DNA from: a virus | Length of the DNA: 49,429 nucleotides | Virus record (IMG/VR): IMGVR_UViG_3300032897_000008 | Span: 1 to 49,429 of that record | Strand: one strand, 5' to 3' | Shown: positions 5,424-39,814 of the stretch, piece by piece | Numbering within the stretch: the first letter of the stretch is position 1 | Layout of the letters: every line of letters starts with the position of its first letter | Translations under genes and position numbers: made by a program | Notes under the pieces: model-generated | Told to the model about the DNA's origin: nothing | The model's database searches: none | Seen by the model: only the letters and a program-made list of their open reading frames with translations

Positions 5424-5972
5424 ATGATCGCAAAGGAAGTCTCAACCTCGAAGCTGATTGCCGCCTACCGTCACTTCGGGTCACTCCGTCCGGCGGCTCG
5501 GTCCTGTGGGATCTCCAAGGACCTTGCCCGAAAGATCCTCATGGCGCAGGGTGTCGAGAAGCCCAAAGCCTTCTTTCCCAAGCGGCCTTCCTACAATCCC
5601 AAGCGGAAGTACTCTGACTTTGCCAAGTGGCACAAGGACCACGCCTCCGACCCCGACCTTCCCTTCTCTCTCAAAGAGATCGCCTCGCTCGCCGGGGTCT
5701 CGGAGAACGTGGCTCGGTGCTACTTCTACCGACGGCGGAAGCAGGCCAAAGCGATCCTCTCAGAGCTTCCCGACATCCGAAAGCTCGACCTCGTTCTCGA
5801 AGACATCGAGGGAAAGAAGTTCTCCTCCCGCTTACTCGGTCCCTACCACTACGCCATCCATCGCTACAGCCAGAGGGCGGCGATCCAGGGAAGCGTCGAG
5901 GGGAAAGAGGTGACCGTGGTGATCGCCTCGATAGATCAATTCGCCTCTCGCGTGAGGAAAGCTACAGCGTGA
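5424..5972 (+). CDS. Helix-turn-helix DNA-binding protein
   Basis: A 182-aa protein with two helix-turn-helix-like segments: residues ~20-42 (SLRPAARSCGISKDLARKIL) and ~82-108 (SLKEIASLAGVSENVARCYF followed by RRRKQ). The first resembles the resolvase/transposase-type HTH used to read out repeated DNA sites, the second a MerR/LacI-like turn. Lys- and Arg-rich linkers fit DNA binding. It ends in GTGA overlap with the methyltransferase, so the two are co-translated. It could regulate the early-to-late switch or guide the methyltransferase's expression; no enzyme domain is seen. Confidence 0.8.
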   Translation: MIAKEVSTSKLIAAYRHFGSLRPAARSCGISKDLARKILMAQGVEKPKAFFPKRPSYNPKRKYSDFAKWHKDHASDPDLPFSLKEIASLAGVSENVARCYFYRRRKQAKAILSELPDIRKLDLVLEDIEGKKFSSRLLGPYHYAIHRYSQRAAIQGSVEGKEVTVVIASIDQFASRVRKATA

Positions 5973-6691
5973 TCTACTTAGGGGATTGCTTGGAGATCAT
6001 GAAAAGTATTCCTTCTGAATCTATTGATCTCATCCTTTGTGATCTCCCATACGGAATCACTTCATGCAAATGGGACAGCGTAATACCGATTGAACCGCTC
6101 TGGCGAGAATACATAAGAATCACAAAGCCTGTCTCCGCAGTCGTTCTTACGGCATCGCAGCCCTTTTCATCAATGCTCGTGATGAGCAAACCGGAACTGT
6201 TCAAACATGAATGGATCTGGATCAAAAACCGAGGAAGCAATTTTGCCAACACGGTTAGGGAACCTTTCAAAGAGCACGAGCACGTTCTTGTCTTTAGCAA
6301 AGGAAAGTGGAAGTACAACAAACAGATGCAAGAAAGAACGGGAGCAGGACTTGCGAGGGTAAACTATGAATTTGATTTCAAAAGCAAGTCAGAGAACTAC
6401 AAGGACTTTGAAGGACGCAGCGAAGTCAAATTACCTGCCCTCCGAGTTCCCTCTTCTTGGCAGAAGTTCAACACCGATACAAGTGGTCTGCATCCAACAA
6501 TCAAGCCGGTAGAGTTAATGAAATACATGATCCTGACCTACACAGATGAAGGCGACACGGTCTTAGACAATGCAATGGGATCAGGAACAACAGGAGTTGC
6601 TTGCACTCAGACGAAGCGGAAGTTCGTTGGCATAGAGAAAGAAAAGAAGTACTTCGATGTAGCCAAAGAACGGATTGCTACTTCCCCTTGA
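5969..6691 (+). CDS. DNA (adenine or N4-cytosine) methyltransferase, beta class
   Basis: A 240-aa amino-methyltransferase. The catalytic DLPYG motif lies near the N-terminus (after VIYLGDCLEIM...SIDLIL) and the SAM-binding NAMGSGTTGVAC near the C-terminus, the motif order of the beta class. It would transfer methyl from SAM to an exocyclic amino group in DNA, probably to protect phage DNA from host restriction; there is no partner endonuclease. The GTG start at 5969 overlaps the previous stop. The open frame upstream to 5627 is a shadow of the HTH gene. The gene is distinctly AT-richer than the genome and probably acquired. Its end overlaps the convergent late operon by 14 bp. Confidence 0.93.
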   Translation: MIYLGDCLEIMKSIPSESIDLILCDLPYGITSCKWDSVIPIEPLWREYIRITKPVSAVVLTASQPFSSMLVMSKPELFKHEWIWIKNRGSNFANTVREPFKEHEHVLVFSKGKWKYNKQMQERTGAGLARVNYEFDFKSKSENYKDFEGRSEVKLPALRVPSSWQKFNTDTSGLHPTIKPVELMKYMILTYTDEGDTVLDNAMGSGTTGVACTQTKRKFVGIEKEKKYFDVAKERIATSP

Positions 6692-9600
6692 GGTCTGGTC
6701 GGACGGAGAATCCGCCTGCGGTGAGAAACGCGGCGTAGGGCTGTCCTGCCTCGATCTGCTTGATGACCTCGACGGCCTGAGTGACCTGGGAGCCCATGGG
6801 AGCGAGTGCGGTCACTTCCTTCATCGCCGTCTGAAGCTCCCTCTTCCCCGGCTGGCTCGATGAGAGATTCACCATGGCTTGCCAAAGCGGCCCACCCCGC
6901 AGTGTCACCACCCGCCACGGCATGAGGTTTCCTCCCGAAAGTCCCGCCATGCGATTGGCTCCGTAGAACGCGGCGGTGTTCTTCGCGAAAGTAGCAAGTG
7001 CCGCCGTACGGTCGAAGAAACCTCCCGACCCGGCAAGCCTCGTGAGCGCCGCCATGTAGTGGGTGGGAACGACGGTGAGCTGACCGAACATCTTTCCGAG
7101 GATGCCGGTGTTAAGCGCCCTTCCCTGGTCCTCGGGGCGGAAGCCGAAGGCGATCTGGTCGGTCATGTTCTGCGCGTAGGCATGCTTCGCTCCCTCGTAG
7201 TCGCCTTGAGAGAGAAGCGTCTCCACTTGATCGAGGGCTCCCGGATCAAGCCGGAAGGCCTTGATCGCTTTCGCTTTCTGGGTCCAGTCCCCGACCTTCC
7301 CTCGATCGAACCACGCCTGGAGGTTTCGATCGAAAAGCCACGAGGCGGAGTCGTAGACCCCGGCCCGCCCGAGGATATGCCCGTTCTGGACGAAGTACCC
7401 CGAGGCTTTCCCCAGGCGGTTGAAGAGACTCGCGAAGGCGCTTCCGCTTCCCGCTGCCTCGTTGAACCCGTACATCGGGACCTTGCCCGTGAACACGCCC
7501 TTCTGGAAGAGATCCTTGAGATGGTCCAGCCCTCCATCGGAAGCCGCCTTGAACCCCCGGTTCATCGCTTCGGTCCCGAGGAAGCCCGACCCGAGGAGGT
7601 AGTTGTGTTCAAGAATGGTGAGCGCACTGGAGGGTCGGAATCCGTACGCACCCATTCCCGCCGCCGTCTGGAGGTAGGAGAAGATGTTTGCTTGGGGTCC
7701 CGGTCCGTCCTTTCCCAGCGCTTTCAAGACCTCCAAGGCTTCACTGTGAGTCCCGTTGAGTGCCTCGTCGATGTAGTGCTTCCCGAGGAGTTGAACGTGC
7801 TTCGGGACATCAGGCTGGGAAAGGCGCTCTGCGAAATCCTTGAAGTTCTCTACCGCGTACGCCCAGCGGTTTGCCATCTGCGAGTACCCGATGAACTTCG
7901 AGATCGCGTTCTGGTCTTTAAGAATCCCGTCCACGTCAGCCACGCGCTCGTACTGAGACGCATACCCGAGGTCCTTCGGAATCCTCCCTCCATAGACCCG
8001 GTTGATGAGCTGTCGCATTCCGTCGGGACCCGAAAGTTCCATGTCTTGGTAGGCTTTGGGGTTCGCCTCTTTCCAATCGTGGACTTTCTTCGCGTAGTCC
8101 ACAAGCATGATATCGGGGTCCTGACCGGTCCGTGTGTAGGAGGCGTTGTAGAGCTGCCGAAGCCTTGAGGCTGCATCCTGGATTTGTGCCCGCTTCGGCG
8201 AGCCCTCGGTGTAGCCCAAGTCCTCAAGCGTCCGCTGTCGGTCCTCTTCCCCGAGGGACTGCATCACCTTGTCCACGGCCATCCAGTCTTTGTCTGAGAG
8301 GTTGTAGAGTCGCTCGATGGAAAAGGCCTTTTGAGCGTCCACGTAGGTCTGGTTGCTCGCGGCCTTGATCCCCTCACCGACTTTCGAGAACGTCCTCCCC
8401 AAGCCCTTGATCCCGTACTCCACCTCAGCTCGGGCGATCGAGGTTCTTGCCGGTGCCATCCAATCAGAGATCACCGACCTGATATGAGAGATCTCTTGGC
8501 CGAGCTTTGACCGACCCGCGTACTTCCCAATTGGGATCACATCCGAGGCGAGCTTCGGTGAGTCGGCGCTGTTCTTAAGCGTCACCCCCGCGTCGAACTG
8601 CCCACCGGGTGCCCACCTCAGGTCGGGGGTCTTCGCAAGGATCTTCCCTACCTCATCCATGGAGTGAACGGTGTAGGTTCCCGTCGCATCCGATAGGACA
8701 TACCCGCGCTTGGGGTCGTAGGTGAAGGCAAAGCCTCTCTCGTTTGCGATCCGTGAGGCGTTGTCGTATTCCTTGTACTTGCCGTTGAGGTACTCGTGGG
8801 CTTCCGCCGAGGAGGCAAACCGTTCCCGTATTCCCCACGCAGGAATCTCCACGGTGTACGCCCCGTCGTGATCGGAAGTGAGCCTGCCATCTCCCGTGGA
8901 AGCAACCGTTTTCCTTCCTTCCTCCGCCGCCACGTCCATGAACTGCGAGGCGAACTTGTAGACATCCCGAAGGCTCCCGCTCACCCCATCGCCCGAGTAC
9001 TGAAAGCGCGAACCCTCGGGAAGGATCTCGATGTTTCGAGGCCCAAAGCGACCGTCGAGAAGCTTCGGCCGGTACTTGGCTTCCCACATCGCCTGGGCCG
9101 CGTTGGCCCCAGAGCCCAGCACCTTCCCGTCCGTGTCGAGGATCGAGTACTGTCCGCCTTCCTGGCGGAGCGACATTCCTTCGCTCTCAAGGCTTGCGCG
9201 AAGATGGGAGGGCGTCGTCGAGCGAAGCAGAAATGCATCGGTCACCTCATCGAGTGATCCCTGAAACGGCGGGTAGCCTTTCATCGAAAGCGCGTAGTTG
9301 TCGGTGCCGAACTTGGCGATGTTTCCGGTTCCTTCCCGCGCCACCGCGTTCATGAACCACTCGGCTCGCTCCTGAGGCCCCAAGCCCTCCGGTGCCCGGT
9401 ACATCGTCGGCCGCTCTGGAGTCATGGCCGATGCCCCGCCAGCGGTGGGAAGCTCTTCTGGAGCGGTGTATTCCCTCGACCACTTGTTCACGAACTCGGT
9501 GACGTGTTTGATTTGCTCCCTCGGGTAGAGTGCCGTCACCGACCCGTCAGCGTGCTCGATGGCGTCGTAGCCTCCGTCCCGAAGCTTCCAGAAGGCGAGG

Positions 9601-28857: not shown

Positions 28858-29185
28858 CTTCCTTCTCCTCGAAGCGCATCTTGGCAAGCTCGATGAGGGT
28901 GTTATACGCCCGGGTGTAAGCTTTCGCCTCCCCCTGTCTCACTCTCAACTCCTTGTCCGAGACCGCTTCGCTTTCCAACGCAGCCTTCGCCACTTCCAGT
29001 CCATCGACGATCAAGACCTCTTGGAGCAATTGCCAGTACTCGCTACCCCGCAGGCCCCGCGCCAACTCCGCTAACCTGCGGAGCACCCGGGATTGCTCCT
29101 TGTACTGGGGGTCCGCCAGCTCCTGCGGGTCCAGCGCCATTAGGAGCGACAGGGACTCCGGCCTGTCCTCCAGGATTCCCGCCAT
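28838..29185 (-). CDS. Small helical protein overlapping the portal gene, 115 aa
   Basis: Starting at ATG 29185 with a strong GGAGGTGGAGGGT, this 115-aa product is acidic and helical (LADPQYKEQSRVLRRLAELA, ALESEAVSDKELRVRQGEAK). It overlaps the last 143 bases of the portal gene in another frame, and the scaffold gene at its end by 20 bases. The portal region here is a Gly/Pro-rich tail that tolerates overlap. It could be an assembly factor between portal and scaffold. Confidence 0.6.
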   Translation of the reverse strand: MAGILEDRPESLSLLMALDPQELADPQYKEQSRVLRRLAELARGLRGSEYWQLLQEVLIVDGLEVAKAALESEAVSDKELRVRQGEAKAYTRAYNTLIELAKMRFEEKEDGKAGD

Positions 29186-31124
29186 ACCCTCCACCTCCCA
29201 TTTGATTCCGTGCAGCATCCAGGGCACTCATCTGTTGGGCGTTCACTGCTCTCAACATCTGAATGACTTTCTCCCACTTCTTCACATCCTGAAGGTAATT
29301 CTCCGTGTCATCGAAATCCGCGAAGTGATAGCTCTCTTTTAGCAGGTTCACGCTTCCCACATAGATCTCAAGCAGTTGCGCCCACGCATCCGGCGCGGCG
29401 GCTTTCAATTGCATCCCTTGAGGCCCAAAGACGACCTGGGAGAGCTGGACGAGCTGCGGCTGGGCCTGGAAGGTCAACTCCATGAGCTGGATGAGGGTCT
29501 CCCTCCGCGCCTCGTAGGAGTGCTCGATGTCCGTCGTGTAGATGTCGAACTTAAAGCGCCTCGGAATATCACTCACATCCATGTTGAGGATTCGGTCCAG
29601 TTGGGTGATCTCCTCATCCGTGAGCCGTCCAAGCTGTCTCTCGTTCCAGATCACCCGCTCACGGTTCCTCACGAGCTGAAAGACGACCAGAAGTCCTACC
29701 CGCGACCAGCTCTCCGACGTGCTCTCAATCGTCGTCGCCATGATACCTTGAGACGCCTGCATTCGCATCTCTTGCCCTCGAAACGTATCCCGCGTCCCGA
29801 GGGTCGGGTCGGCAAAGCCCCGGTCGGGAGAAGAGACTCCCGTGGCCTGAGCGGCAAGCGACCAGACGAGGTTTTCACTCTGAAGGCTTGAGGCCGGCAC
29901 CTCCCCGAGAGCGATCGGCTCCATGTCCTCCTTCGGGTTGTCGGTGATCCAGACCTTTCCCTGATAGATCGTGTTCTTGTTTTCCCGAAGCACCGCCCTC
30001 CTCACCGCGAGCATCTTGATCGATGCGAGCTTCATCCCGTCGTTTCGAAGGCGGTGAGTGCCCGAGGCCTCGTCCTGAAGGCCCTCGCAGATCTGCCCGA
30101 TCCCCCGGGACTCCAGCATGAAGCTCCGCGGGATGTATCCGAACTCCTGGAACTCCCGCGCGGCGATCCCGTTGAAAACCTTCCGAAGGATCGTTCGTGA
30201 GGGCACGTGGATGGTGAAGATCACGTCCTCCCACACCCCGTCATCGTCGATGTCCCAGAAGAAGTGAAACTCCATGAGGTCGATGACTTTCGGGCTTCCC
30301 GGCGCGAGATACCTCAGCTTCGCGTTTGCCTGCTCGCTCTCATTCAGGTTTTCGCGCTCCCAGTTCTTCGGATCAATCTCCTTTCCATCCGAGGTCTTCG
30401 GCTCGTCGTAGATCCCCTGTTCGACCTTGTTTTCAAACTCATGAAGGGGGAGATGAAGCTCGTGCGCGATCCACGGCATCCGCTGGATCTCGTCCCAGAA
30501 CGGCGGATAGTACGTATCTTCCTGCGAGATCGGGATGATCGCCGGCCCGTCGTGATACGTCATCGTTTTCGTCTCGCCATCGTCGCCCTTGAACTTCCAT
30601 TCAAGGGTGTCCCACACGACTTTCACCATAAGCAATCCCATGAACGTCGCCTCGTCGCTCACGATGCGCTTGATCTTTGGCATATTCAGATCCGTCTGGG
30701 AGTAGGCAAGAATCCCGAGGTACTTCGTCATGAACTTCGCGTCATCGTGGCTTTCCTGGGTGTCCGCGTAGCTTTTCAATTGCCAGAAAAACGGCTTTCC
30801 CGTGTCGTAGTACCCCTTCACCTTCGCGTAGGCCGTTTGGGCATGGATTTGTGTGAGCGGAGGCATGATCCGGGAGGCATTCGAGAGTGCGTGCTCGGCC
30901 GCAGTGGTCTCCGGCTGGGCTTCCCGCTGCTGGCGCCACTTCATCCACTTCTTCACGCGCTCCGAGCGCTCGCTTTTCGCCTCTTCAAGCTCCTGGAGGA
31001 GATAATTCAAGATTTCATCGCGCTTCTCATCCGAGAGTTCGATCGTCAGCGGGCTCGGCGAGGGCCGATCCGCCTTCGGCGTCTCATCATCGGTCGTGAT
31101 TTCTATCGTCGTGGGGTCACTCAT
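29043..31124 (-). CDS. Portal protein
   Basis: A 693-aa portal: long N-terminal helix (LTIELSDEKRDEILNYLLQE), then the portal core (KVWDTLEWKFKGDD region, WDEIQRMPWIAHELHLPLHE), wing and stem helices, and an extended C-terminal Gly/Pro/Ala-rich tail from about residue 640. The length fits podovirus portals. It lies 12 bases downstream of the large terminase, the usual order. The tail overlaps the next gene. Confidence 0.88.
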   Translation of the reverse strand: MSDPTTIEITTDDETPKADRPSPSPLTIELSDEKRDEILNYLLQELEEAKSERSERVKKWMKWRQQREAQPETTAAEHALSNASRIMPPLTQIHAQTAYAKVKGYYDTGKPFFWQLKSYADTQESHDDAKFMTKYLGILAYSQTDLNMPKIKRIVSDEATFMGLLMVKVVWDTLEWKFKGDDGETKTMTYHDGPAIIPISQEDTYYPPFWDEIQRMPWIAHELHLPLHEFENKVEQGIYDEPKTSDGKEIDPKNWERENLNESEQANAKLRYLAPGSPKVIDLMEFHFFWDIDDDGVWEDVIFTIHVPSRTILRKVFNGIAAREFQEFGYIPRSFMLESRGIGQICEGLQDEASGTHRLRNDGMKLASIKMLAVRRAVLRENKNTIYQGKVWITDNPKEDMEPIALGEVPASSLQSENLVWSLAAQATGVSSPDRGFADPTLGTRDTFRGQEMRMQASQGIMATTIESTSESWSRVGLLVVFQLVRNRERVIWNERQLGRLTDEEITQLDRILNMDVSDIPRRFKFDIYTTDIEHSYEARRETLIQLMELTFQAQPQLVQLSQVVFGPQGMQLKAAAPDAWAQLLEIYVGSVNLLKESYHFADFDDTENYLQDVKKWEKVIQMLRAVNAQQMSALDAARNQMGGGGYGGNPGGQAGVPVAPNGAGPAGAGGPPVQGAIPGAPQVSGVGAGPAG

Positions 31125-34816: not shown

Positions 34817-34972
34817 CTATCCTAACTCACGTAGTGACGGTGGTTTACAAAATTCGCGTAAAAAACGAGAATTTCGCGCGAACGCGCGAACGTTCCAGGT
34901 CTACCACTCCACAACCGTATAGGCATCTATCCGTCTTTGAGACAAAAATCTCGCTTTTTTTCTTCCACCTGA

Positions 34973-36744: not shown

Positions 36745-37010
36745 CCACCGCCGTCTATCGCCTCCCTCTCTCCTCCACACTCTCGCGCGATTCCCTTATC
36801 TGTCATCTTTCCTCGATCACTCCCCAGGACGCAATCGACCGCCTCTCACGTGCCGGCGTTCTCGCAATAGAGGGCCCAGAAGAGAACTCTATTCTCCTCT
36901 TAGGCTTTCATCGCGAGATCCGAAAGCTGCTTGCCTTCTGGCGTAACCCTCGCCTCTACTCCGACGACATCTCTCTCACCATAGCCAAACTAAGGAGGCT
37001 TTCCGCATGA
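36741..37010 (+). CDS. Small early protein, 89 aa
   Basis: ATG 36741 with GGGAGG upstream. 89 aa, helical with a hydrophobic ILLLGF stretch, probably a small regulatory protein (ISLTIAKLRRLSA at the end). Function unknown. Confidence 0.72.
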   Translation: MTTAVYRLPLSSTLSRDSLICHLSSITPQDAIDRLSRAGVLAIEGPEENSILLLGFHREIRKLLAFWRNPRLYSDDISLTIAKLRRLSA

Positions 37011-37657
37011 ACACCAAGTCACGACAGATCTCAAAGAAGAAACCGTCCTCGGTTTCTCCCGTCTCCGCCGAAGCCCGCGAGCTTCAGGCCCTCAAGTCCC
37101 GCGCACTCTCTCTCATCGAGTCCTCGAAATCGATCCAAGTGAAGGACACCCCAAGCTTCGAGCGCGCCGGCGACCTCGTGAAAGACGCCGTAGGGCTCCG
37201 AAAGGATCTCCGGGGGACTGCCTTCTACAAGGCCCTTGTCGAGGCCAAAGCCGACCTGAAAACGAAAGACCAGCTCTACAAGAGCGTCGAGAAGCTCGTC
37301 AAAGACGCCGAGGATCTCGTCCGAGACGCCCTCTCCCGCTACGCCGCCGAGCAGCGCTGGAAGCAGGAAGCCGCCATCGAACGCGCCATGGAGAAGGGAA
37401 AGGACGAGAAGGCCGCATCTATCGCCGCCACGCCCTTCGTCCCACCCGTCCAGGGCCTTTCCTTCACCGAACACTGGCATGCGGAGGTGGAAAGCCTCCA
37501 CGCGCTCGTGAAGGCCGCTGCAAGCGATCCGAACCTTCTCGCCTATCTGGATGCCAACATGGTCCCTTTGAACGCTCTGGCACGCTCCCAGAAGGACTCC
37601 ATGGCAATCCCCGGCGTCAAAGCCGTGAAGGAAACCTCCTCCTCGGTGAGGGCATAA
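37007..37657 (+). CDS. Helical, Lys-rich protein, 216 aa
   Basis: A 216-aa protein: a basic N-terminus, a long coiled coil (~25-150) and a C-terminal part (TEHWHAEVESLHALVKAAAS ... VPLNALARSQKDSMAIPGVK) found in many phage proteins of unknown role near replication genes. ATGA overlap with the previous gene. Could act as a DNA-binding or scaffold-like early factor. Confidence 0.75.
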   Translation: MNTKSRQISKKKPSSVSPVSAEARELQALKSRALSLIESSKSIQVKDTPSFERAGDLVKDAVGLRKDLRGTAFYKALVEAKADLKTKDQLYKSVEKLVKDAEDLVRDALSRYAAEQRWKQEAAIERAMEKGKDEKAASIAATPFVPPVQGLSFTEHWHAEVESLHALVKAAASDPNLLAYLDANMVPLNALARSQKDSMAIPGVKAVKETSSSVRA

Positions 37658-37668
37658 AAGACACTATG

Positions 37669-37709
37669 TGACACCTGCTTGACACCGTGGGGCCATCCTG
37701 TGGTATCTT
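37669..37709 (+). promoter_or_regulatory. Promoter with direct repeats before the 73-aa gene
   Basis: TTGACA (37679-37684) and TATCTT (37704-37709) with 19 bases between, longer than ideal. TGACACC occurs twice, at 37669 and 37680, exactly 11 bases apart and overlapping the -35 box, which suggests a protein binding to one face of the helix. Confidence 0.55.
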
Positions 37710-37816
37710 CATCTTGCTTTCCGAACGCATCCGGGGTGGTCGAGAGGAAAGTCTTACTACGGCGTTGCCGCTTACAGACACCTTTCGACCCGCCCCACTC
37801 TTTCCGGGAGGAAATC

Positions 37817-38038
37817 ATGACGATCACTGAAGAGAAAATCCTTGAAGACTTGAAGTCCAAAGGAATCCGTGTCTATGGAAAGCGGATCGTCAGCTCGTTC
37901 AAGACGACAGACAGCGCCGAGCGCATGGCCAGGATCAACTTCCTCGTCGAGAAGTGCGGCTACACTCTCCACGACGAGAAGGGTTTCCCCAAGAAGCCCG
38001 AGAAGAAGCCTGAAGCCGCGCCGTCCGTAGCAGTGTGA
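37817..38038 (+). CDS. Small early protein, 73 aa
   Basis: ATG after GGGAGGAAATC. 73 aa, with an N-terminal helix-rich half (EKILEDLKSKGIRVYGKRIV, RMARINFLVEKCGYTLHDEK) and a Lys/Pro/Glu tail. Possibly a small nucleic-acid or protein-binding factor. It is preceded by a leader of about 100 bases that can form a GGGGTGGTCGA/TCGACCCGCCCC stem. Followed by the structured region. Confidence 0.72.
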   Translation: MTITEEKILEDLKSKGIRVYGKRIVSSFKTTDSAERMARINFLVEKCGYTLHDEKGFPKKPEKKPEAAPSVAV

Positions 38039-38044
38039 TTCCTT

Positions 38045-38112
38045 ACCCTCCACGGACAAACACGGTAGCCCGGAACGCACCTTGGCCTTTGGCGAGGCAG
38101 ACCGTGGAGGGT
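38045..38112 (+). terminator. Long-range inverted repeat with T-rich end
   Basis: ACCCTCCACGG (38045-38055) and CCGTGGAGGGT (38102-38112) pair over 11 bases, enclosing about 46 bases with an inner hairpin, and are followed by TTTCTT. It starts seven bases after the stop of the 73-aa gene and looks like a structured terminator or the 5' part of a non-coding RNA. Confidence 0.68.
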
Positions 38113-38118
38113 TTTCTT

Positions 38119-38231
38119 GCCCCCGACCGCAGCCCGACAAGCCATCGGGTGGGCGCGACAGATGGCCAACAGGTCTGAACGACCTGACACGAGGCGTCGT
38201 GATGAGTCACGGTCCGACTCCGTGCGGGGGC
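38119..38231 (+). ncRNA. tRNA-like structured RNA element
   Basis: GCCCCCG (38119-38125) pairs perfectly with CGGGGGC (38225-38231), a 7-bp closing stem like a tRNA acceptor. Inside, CACGG-TCCGACT-CCGTG (38208-38224) forms a 5-bp/7-base arm joined directly to the acceptor strand as in a T arm; CAGGT-CTGAACG-ACCTG (38170-38186) resembles an anticodon arm with T33 and GAA (Phe); CACGA-GGCG-TCGTG (38188-38201) is a long variable-arm-like stem; CCCGA...TCGGG (38133-38149) replaces the D arm but is set in a region too long (44 nt). The T-loop lacks the second U and position 37 is C, so a working tRNA is doubtful. Confidence 0.55.
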
Positions 38232-38235
38232 TAAA

Positions 38236-38250
38236 AGCGGCGTTGCCGCT
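38236..38250 (+). repeat. Short hairpin AGCGGC/GCCGCT
   Basis: AGCGGC-GTT-GCCGCT directly after the tRNA-like fold. The core GGCGTTGCCGCT also occurs at 37757-37768 in the leader of the previous gene, hinting at a shared RNA element. Confidence 0.6.
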
Positions 38251-38252
38251 CA

Positions 38253-38331
38253 GAGGCTCGGGCGCCGGGGCGTCAAACAACGATTCTCACGGCGTATCGT
38301 TTCATCCTGGTGACCTGAGCCTCGTTTTTTT
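38253..38331 (+). terminator. Terminator-like hairpin just before a ribosome binding site (attenuator candidate)
   Basis: GAGGCTCGGG (38253-38262) pairs with CCTGAGCCTC (38314-38323) over ten positions with one G-U pair, then G and seven T's. It encloses about 50 bases with an inner hairpin (ACGAT...ATCGT). The AAAGGAG of the next gene starts three bases after the T run, so termination or refolding here would control that gene. Confidence 0.7.
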
Positions 38332-38345
38332 CAAAGGAGATCCTT

Positions 38346-38564
38346 GTGGCAAAACCAAAATTCCCCAAAGAGATTTTCGTGTACTTGGACAAGCGAGGAG
38401 ACGACTACGACATAGAAGCAAGACAAACCCTCAAAGAGGCAGCATACGGTCTGGGCGACGGTGAGACAATGCAAATTGCCCGATATGTCTTGGCAAACGG
38501 AGAGCCGTCTTCCTACACTGCAAAGCTCATCACGTTTTCGAAGCCTTCTACTCGGATAAAGTAG
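38346..38564 (+). CDS. Small early protein, 72 aa
   Basis: GTG start after AAAGGAGATCCTT. The 72-aa product (MAKPKFPKEIFVYLDKRGDD; QTLKEAAYGLGDGETMQIAR) has a beta-strand, loop, helix look. It is AT-richer than neighbours and preceded by an apparent attenuator. Function unknown. Confidence 0.7.
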   Translation: MAKPKFPKEIFVYLDKRGDDYDIEARQTLKEAAYGLGDGETMQIARYVLANGEPSSYTAKLITFSKPSTRIK

Positions 38565-38575
38565 GGAACGATCCC

Positions 38576-39814
38576 TTGAACACTACCCCCGAGCAGAAAG
38601 CCCTGATCGATTCCTTCAACTCTAACGCGATGACCACAAATGAGAATGTCATCGAGCGCTACGTCTCCCGATGGTCTCGAAACATCGGCTCGCTCATCCG
38701 CTCAGGGCTCGACCTCCGAGGCGCCAAGCCCCTCTGCGAGAAGCTTTCGACCTTCAGGGATTTCCTCGTCCTCGGCTCGGGTCCGTCCATTCAATCCATC
38801 TGTTCCGACCTTCCCGACCGTGGAGCGCCCGCAATCCTCTGCGGCCCCACGGCCTACGGTGCCCTTCGCGCGATCGACGTCCATCCCACGGTGATCCTCG
38901 TGGCCGATCCTTCTCCCACCCAGTACCGCCACATGGTCGAGAACCTTTTCGACTCCCCGTGTGATTTCCTTCTCCCCGTCACCTGCGACCCTTCGTGGTA
39001 CGCGAAAGAGTCCATCATTCCCAAGTCCCGGCTTTTCTTCTACCTTCCGTTCTTCTCCTGGCTCGGGGACACCCAGATCGCTTTCAACGCGATGCTTCAG
39101 GACCTCTTTCCCGAGATCTCCCAGAGCTGGTTTCTCCAAGCGGGCTCCGTCGCCAACCTTGCCGTCCACTTCGCCGACAAGGCCTGCGGGATGGACCCCT
39201 CCAAGCGCATCCACATCGCCATCGAGAACTCGTGGCCCGAGGGCGGACCCTACCGCGCCCCGCTGCGCTTCCCACTCTCTCACTACTCCGAGGGCCTTCG
39301 CTCGTGGTTTCACTCCCCCCAGAACCAGATGCTCACCGATAGTCTCTCTGGAACTCAGACCGACATGACCTCACTCAACTATGCGGTGAGTCTCTTCTAC
39401 TCCATCCACTGTCTCATCTACTTCGAGGGCGAGGAGGCCAGGAAGGCCCGCGAGCGCCGCTACCATCTCGTCCACGAGGCCTCTTCCCTCTACTTCTGGG
39501 CCTCTCCCGCATCCTTTCGCCCGCTTTTCTACGAGGCCCCCTATCGCTACCTCGACTCGCGGATCGACACCTCGGTCGAGCACTGGACCTACCAGCTCGT
39601 GCTTGACCTCATCTCCCTCACTGAGCGCCTCATGACCGAGCTTCGAGACGCTGCGGTCACTGACGCCCTCCGCATCTGGAAGGAAGGTCATGCTTCCTCG
39701 GTCGAGATCCCGGTCCCCAACGACACCGAGGCTCAAAAGGTCGAGAAGGCCATCCACGACATCGACCCTTCCGTCAAGCTCATCTTCAAGAAACCGGAGG
39801 TGGAGAAGGCATGA
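38576..39814 (+). CDS. MptE-like/DUF115 family protein
   Basis: A 412-aa protein with an MptE-like (DUF115) domain: FLVLGSGPSIQSI (63-75) as a Rossmann-type glycine loop, ILCGPTAYGALRAIDVHPTV (~86-106) and GSVANLAVHFADKACGMD. Members are known in sugar/flagellin-associated glycosylation loci and phages, as well as in pterin synthesis, so the substrate here is open. TTG start preceded by GTAGGGAAC; ATG at 38630 is an alternative. It ends in ATGA overlap. With the methyltransferase-like gene and GT2 gene downstream it may form a glycan-modifying set. Confidence 0.75.
   Translation: MNTTPEQKALIDSFNSNAMTTNENVIERYVSRWSRNIGSLIRSGLDLRGAKPLCEKLSTFRDFLVLGSGPSIQSICSDLPDRGAPAILCGPTAYGALRAIDVHPTVILVADPSPTQYRHMVENLFDSPCDFLLPVTCDPSWYAKESIIPKSRLFFYLPFFSWLGDTQIAFNAMLQDLFPEISQSWFLQAGSVANLAVHFADKACGMDPSKRIHIAIENSWPEGGPYRAPLRFPLSHYSEGLRSWFHSPQNQMLTDSLSGTQTDMTSLNYAVSLFYSIHCLIYFEGEEARKARERRYHLVHEASSLYFWASPASFRPLFYEAPYRYLDSRIDTSVEHWTYQLVLDLISLTERLMTELRDAAVTDALRIWKEGHASSVEIPVPNDTEAQKVEKAIHDIDPSVKLIFKKPEVEKA

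Follow-up and report, generated by a model that had tools for sequence, protein, structure and literature searches.

The 49,429-nt window analysed here, a phage record (IMGVR_UViG_3300032897_000008), contains a structured noncoding locus with a tRNA-like fold in the gap at 38039-38345, and the corresponding core of a sister phage is an unrelated tRNA-like RNA swapped in at exactly the same slot. The fold is one exchangeable cassette within a larger locus (37679-38564) that has its own promoter and leader RNA. This locus, with its shared promoter and varied RNA and protein cargo, was found in five other phages only. We are highly confident in the anatomy of the locus and of the fold. A first-pass annotation had described four consecutive folds in the gap; they sit where it placed them and nearly every detail was right. 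Its tRNA-like noncoding locus holds, given the real fold, the noncoding gap and the different tRNA-like RNA in the sister phage's slot, and the decoy that it suggested is plausible; the exchangeable cassette, the promoter and the leader had been overlooked.

The minus strand of the window carries the terminase and portal genes, and the plus strand those of a DNA polymerase, a primase, an exonuclease and a Sak4-like annealing protein. The cargo slot of the tRNA-like RNA is bounded by two conserved genes, p216 and p412 (Table 1). Via the flanking proteins we reached five further phages: G003 (L003), G004 (L004), G005 (L005), G006 (L006) and G002 (L012). The promoter and the architecture 3' of the p216 gene are alike in all six phages; in L003, a short open reading frame separates p216 from the promoter. 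The shared promoter reads TTGACAC-N18-TAnnnT, with the variant TTGACAC-N17-TATACT in L012, and the exact pattern is almost absent elsewhere in the six genomes. A generic promoter scan missed this promoter because its 19-nt spacer lies outside the 16-18 range of the scan. Matches to the promoter pattern in L019 and to the hairpin pattern in L065-L067 lie within coding sequence as judged by eye, and were set aside as chance.

The leader RNA, element A, is strongly folded (z = -5.8) and kept in 6/6 phages with diverged stems. Its tip is in each case a small hairpin with a GUU or GUC loop, and the L004 cap reads GCC-GUU-GGC, a two-sided swap. The promoter-leader unit at 37679-37796 is conserved in the five relatives too and is possibly a put-like antitermination RNA or a protein-binding element. 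Its GUU-capped tip recurs at 38237-38249.

The gap is noncoding and holds, in order, module B1, the tRNA-like fold, the GUU hairpin and module B3. The whole region folds with an MFE z of -3.3, none of 100 dinucleotide shuffles being equally stable; the opposite strand folds less well (z = -2.1). This stability is owed mostly to B1 (z = -3.3) and B3 (z = -4.0). The tRNA-like piece alone reaches only z = -1.3, and the tRNA-like reading is supported by the relatives and not by folding energy. A hidden protein was considered and rejected: the 115-aa ORF at 38117-38464 is without a Pfam match and, across the tRNA-like part, without a homologous counterpart in L003.

Table 1 Features of the locus and of the tRNA-like cores. 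Positions are those of the window unless L003 is named.
Feature	Position	Strand	Description
p216	37007-37657		Weak match to a PHROG family annotated exonuclease
Promoter-like element	37679..37709	+	TTGACAC-N18-TATCTT, TG before the -10 box; conserved locus start in six phages
Element A, leader RNA	37731..37796	+	Long hairpin GGGGTGG..CCGCCCC with a GGC-GUU-GCC hairpin as cap
p73, small cargo gene	37817..38038	+	73 aa; SD-like GGGAGG upstream
Module B1	38045..38118	+	11-bp stem (38045-38055/38102-38112), inner GCCTTTGGCGAGGC hairpin, then TTTTCTT
tRNA-like core	38119..38231	+	113 nt
Acceptor of core	38119-38125/38225-38231		Perfect 7 bp, GCCCCCG/CGGGGGC
D region of core	38126-38169		44 nt, long, irregular
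Anticodon-like arm of core	38170-38186		5+7, U33-GAA
Variable-like arm of core	38188-38201		
T-arm of core	38208-38224		5+7, loop UCCGACU; adjoins acceptor without spacer
GCGGC-GUU-GCCGC hairpin	38237..38249	+	5 nt 3' of the acceptor (window and L003); same cap as element A
Module B3, terminator-like	38253..38330	+	Long stem GAGGCTCGGG..CCTGAGCCTC (38253-38262/38314-38323), then T7
p72, small cargo gene	38346..38564	+	72 aa; GTG start, SD AAAGGAG; no family
p412	38576-39814		MptE-like
L003 tRNA-like core	7127-7241		7-bp acceptor, canonical D- and T-arms; more tRNA-like than the window core

The cloverleaf of the window core (-49.5 kcal/mol) lies 0.3 kcal/mol from the MFE structure (-49.8 kcal/mol). 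Its acceptor and anticodon-like arms have pair probabilities of about 1.0. The T-arm is rivalled by an alternative pairing of near-equal energy and has a probability of 0.12 in the thermodynamic model. There is no convincing D-arm, with one disfavoured 6-bp candidate at 38141-38166, and in the T-arm C55 replaces U55. The core also has C37.

DNA of the window and of G003 is about 86% identical over most of the length. The flanking modules follow this closeness, with 94% identity for A and 81% each for B1 and B3. B1 matches L003 7053-7120 at 57 of 67 aligned positions and B3 its L003 counterpart at 79 of 95, and the GUU hairpin recurs identically at L003 7247-7259, spacing included. The two tRNA-like cores between these modules have no detectable sequence similarity and do not align (z = 0.6). 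They are nevertheless set into nearly the same frame: the spacer from B1 to the acceptor is 7 nt in the window and 6 nt in L003, and that from the acceptor to the hairpin is 5 nt in both. The L003 core has a D-arm (GGUGU-AGUGGGA-ACACC) with pair probability >0.9 and the T-arm GCAGG-UUCGAUU-CCUGC, the pair probabilities of the core being mostly >0.9. By eye, we take its U8, A14, G15-C48, G18/G19 and A73 to be canonical tRNA positions. Its anticodon region is abnormal, and the proposed anticodon loop is without U33. A third core, of 56 nt and with one G-G mismatch, lies in the same locus at L006 6822-6877. The anticodon part is not kept among the three: the GAA arm is present in the window, and none is convincing in L003 or L006. 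tRNA mimicry is already known; what sets this locus apart is that unrelated tRNA-like cassettes replace each other in sister phages, for which we found no precedent in the open-access literature.

The remaining cargo varies as well. The window carries p73, B1, the tRNA-like RNA, B3 and p72. L003 has a 95-nt hairpin RNA (6961-7055, z = -4.7) in place of p73, then B1, the tRNA-like RNA and B3, and an RNA of about 140 nt (7351-7492, z = -2.6) in place of p72; both are strongly structured and without an assigned family. L006 combines its mini tRNA-like RNA with other folds, L005 has a putative small protein, and L004 has many small genes. Upstream of element A, L004 also has an apparent stand-alone small RNA (6635-6790) that combines a promoter of the shared type with an intrinsic terminator. 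p73 has no Pfam or PHROG match, and the cargo proteins tested match no known family, the sole exception being an HNH endonuclease in L004. The tRNA-like RNA itself is present in three of the six phages (the window, G003 and G006). L012 (IMGVR_UViG_3300028653_000022) contains the CRISPR repeat GTCGCGCCCTTCGCGGGCGCGTGGATTGAAAC as one exact copy at 5940-5971, placed directly 3' of the leader RNA and shortly ahead of the p412 homologue. This repeat, which we take to be type I-C-like, occurs in arrays of Omnitrophota, Spirochaetes, Chlorobium, Acidobacteria and other genomes, and by analogy the lone copy is a candidate RNA anti-CRISPR. Searches with p412 found no prophage copies in bacterial genomes. 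DNA comparison with known phages and plasmids gave chance-level matches for the window and, for L003, mostly T-arm fragments of ordinary tRNAs.

The top half of a canonical tRNA, a 7-bp acceptor stacked on a 5-bp T-stem with a TYCRANY loop, is found in both the window and L003. A strict scan for this arrangement over 263,686 bases (six records, both strands) matched only 38119-38231 of the window and the G003 copy, with 0.15 matches expected in Markov-randomised sequence; the pattern is a general tRNA one, yet it was written after the window and L003 sequences were known. The G003 match to the tRNA family described below therefore has the better independent weight. Allowing one T-stem mismatch adds only the L006 core, with 1.4 chance matches expected anywhere. 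Acceptor pairing is complete in all three cores. In their acceptor and T helix, 97% of the cells are paired and none of 500 shuffles does as well, a count that leans toward structure because the segments were picked to fit the helix and the cassettes are perhaps without common ancestry. Both partners are changed in 10 of the 12 pairs of this helix; the rest of the RNA is unalignable, and the count is therefore limited to the helix. At the level of predicted pairing, it shows the tRNA top half three times and not covariation within one evolving RNA. It is apparently the tRNA-like shape itself that is retained.

Neither default ARAGORN nor Rfam at its gathering threshold gives a match for the window core, and both also reject the G003 and G006 cores. 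The Rfam tRNA model RF00005 nevertheless matches the G003 core end-to-end (E = 7.4e-4) with 22.4 bits, below the cut-off of 29; the G006 core scores 10.7 bits (E = 1.1, same cut-off), which is individually weak. At permissive Rfam thresholds, the window has chance matches only and L003 a weak tRNA-Sec match of 18 bits. Intron-tolerant ARAGORN calls L003 a tRNA-Pro(ggg) with a score of 61, and relaxed ARAGORN calls a tRNA-Phe(gaa) at 38141-38232 of the window with a score of 37; these settings produce many false calls on both strands, and such calls were not counted as proof. A CCA is not encoded after position 38231 of the window, 7241 of L003 or 6877 of L006. The window RNA thus fails as an ordinary tRNA and has no Rfam family, which fits the tRNA mimic or new phage RNA proposed at first pass.

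For the tRNA-like RNA, expression, processing, action in trans and a role in anti-defence are what we infer. The locus would be early-expressed phage cargo, RNA as well as protein. Transcription would most likely start near 37715, and the transcript would comprise leader hairpin A, p73, B1, the tRNA-like RNA, the GUU-capped hairpin and the terminator-like B3. The tRNA-like RNA would mimic the tRNA top half without decoding. Host RNase P and RNase Z probably excise it. Once free, it may compete in trans, as a decoy, for a host factor that recognises the elbow of acceptor and T-arm; the most plausible candidate is a defence enzyme that handles or targets tRNA. The acceptor/T-arm half of tRNA is read by RNase P, RNase Z, the CCA enzyme, EF-Tu and some synthetases. 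As only this half is common to the three cores, the target would read the elbow or the acceptor. With the anticodon part not kept, a role in decoding is disfavoured, as is a decoy aimed at one anticodon nuclease.

The shared early-type promoter, the fast turnover of small cargo and the CRISPR-repeat mimic in one member make anti-defence our leading guess, and we tentatively favour a decoy or anti-defence agent acting in trans. The blind scan, the RF00005 match in G003, the swap with near-identical spacing and the pair changes on both sides count for it. So does the slot's other content of small proteins, further RNAs and the L012 CRISPR repeat, which is the layout of RNA anti-CRISPRs (PMC10651486). 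Against it count the predicted T-arm occupancy of about 12% and C55 in the window core, and the presence of the RNA in three of six phages only, with a weak case in G006. In tests with retron-Eco7, disrupting the stems or the anticodon abolished protection by phage tRNAs (PMC11555353); that system therefore offers no direct precedent for a decoy that does not decode.

Nearly the same facts would be explained if the fold were punctuation in cis, which we consider somewhat unlikely. It would then be a cleavage signal for RNase P and RNase Z, splitting the transcript into A-p73-B1 upstream and hairpin-B3-p72 downstream, as mascRNA does for MALAT1, and the excised RNA itself would have no function. 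Such a role explains why any tRNA-like sequence serves and why the acceptor and T-arm, which these enzymes read, are kept as the remainder drifts; it also suits an element set between two structured modules at short, fixed distances. However, 113-115 nt with elaborate extra arms exceed the needs of a cleavage signal, half of the phages have such a locus but no tRNA-like element in it, and B1 and B3 already resemble 3' ends.

It is unlikely that the cores are unusual or decaying tRNAs, one tRNA-Pro-like with a disturbed anticodon region (L003) and one tRNA-Phe(GAA)-like with an inserted D region (window). Phages commonly acquire tRNAs, L003 retains the D-loop AGUGGGA, the T-loop UUCGAUU, C1-G72 and A73, and the intron-tolerant and relaxed ARAGORN calls agree with such an origin. 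Yet acceptor pairing, whose loss would be expected, is complete in all three cores, and two unrelated cores fill one slot, which would require two independently decayed tRNAs between the same modules. Rejection of all three cores by default ARAGORN and the Rfam cut-off, the missing CCA, C37 and C55 in the window and the L003 anticodon loop without U33 also speak against decay. Very unlikely is a chance resemblance of terminators and hairpins to a tRNA: the energetically unremarkable core would suit it, but two matches were found where 0.15 were expected in 264 kb, both in the same locus, and G003 matches RF00005. That the fold is the attP of a temperate phage is extremely improbable, for although a tRNA-like 3' end typically serves as attP core, the six records yielded neither a tyrosine integrase nor a serine recombinase, and attP needs neither the 5' acceptor strand, which is present, nor the D-arm of L003.

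The decoy in trans that we favour can be set beside known systems. RNA anti-CRISPRs (Racr, solitary CRISPR repeat units; PMC10651486) are likewise phage noncoding RNAs that imitate a host RNA downstream of a promoter, and L012 has its lone repeat in the equivalent locus; the window RNA, however, imitates a tRNA, and the patterns used revealed no CRISPR repeat in the window, which places it outside Racr. Phage tRNAs that counter tRNA-cleaving defences, such as T5-like tRNA-Tyr against retron-Eco7 and tRNA-Lys against PrrC (PMC11555353), are also tRNA-shaped with their own promoter. They are genuine decoding tRNAs, whereas the window RNA has abnormal anticodon and D regions and is rejected by default finders. 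Viral tRNA-like structures and mascRNA/menRNA (PMC5723415, PMC11693755) share the acceptor/T-arm mimicry and make processing by tRNA enzymes the expected route, but they belong to RNA viruses or human lncRNAs and not to a dsDNA phage locus with cassette exchange.

Two known RNAs were tried and rejected. tmRNA keeps the upper tRNA half without a normal anticodon arm; here, there is no default call, relaxed calls ignore the tRNA-like ends, and no convincing tag-peptide frame or pseudoknot ring is found. YrlA (RF02553), which has a tRNA-like module inside a longer structured RNA, was considered because it has been proposed to inhibit a tRNA nuclease competitively (PMC7790460). The six phages have no TROVE (Ro60/Rsr) gene, and the best match in the locus is a 17-nt fragment of 10.9 bits. 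A YrlA-model match at G003 34875-34967 (20.5 bits vs a cut-off of 69), collinear with a 1597-aa ORF of the window, is likely chance.

We consider it doubtful, though worth stating, that the locus carries interchangeable RNA mimics (a tRNA top half here, a CRISPR repeat in another phage) behind a shared promoter and leader, sabotaging RNA-handling defences. If true, DNA phages would possess a new class of tRNA decoys, which do not decode, and phage RNA mimicry would extend from CRISPR repeats to tRNA. Homology searches detect anti-defence protein genes but mostly miss those that encode RNA. If the p216-p412 slot is a cargo site for RNA mimics, position would reveal RNA inhibitors that share no sequence similarity, as is seen in the two sister phages with their unrelated, swapped tRNA-like RNAs. 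A testable question follows: which elbow-reading host enzyme is targeted.

Elsewhere in the window, a DNA methylase is encoded at 5627-6691 (N6_N4_Mtase, E 4.9e-30), in a stretch over which window and G003 DNA cease to align (about 140 bases in G003). The sole match of the portal (29043-31124) in the phage collection is the Methanomicrobiales-associated virus BK063670, at 27%; the promoters of the window look bacterial notwithstanding. A distant relative contains group II intron pieces (RF02001, RF01998) at L008 7610-7909.
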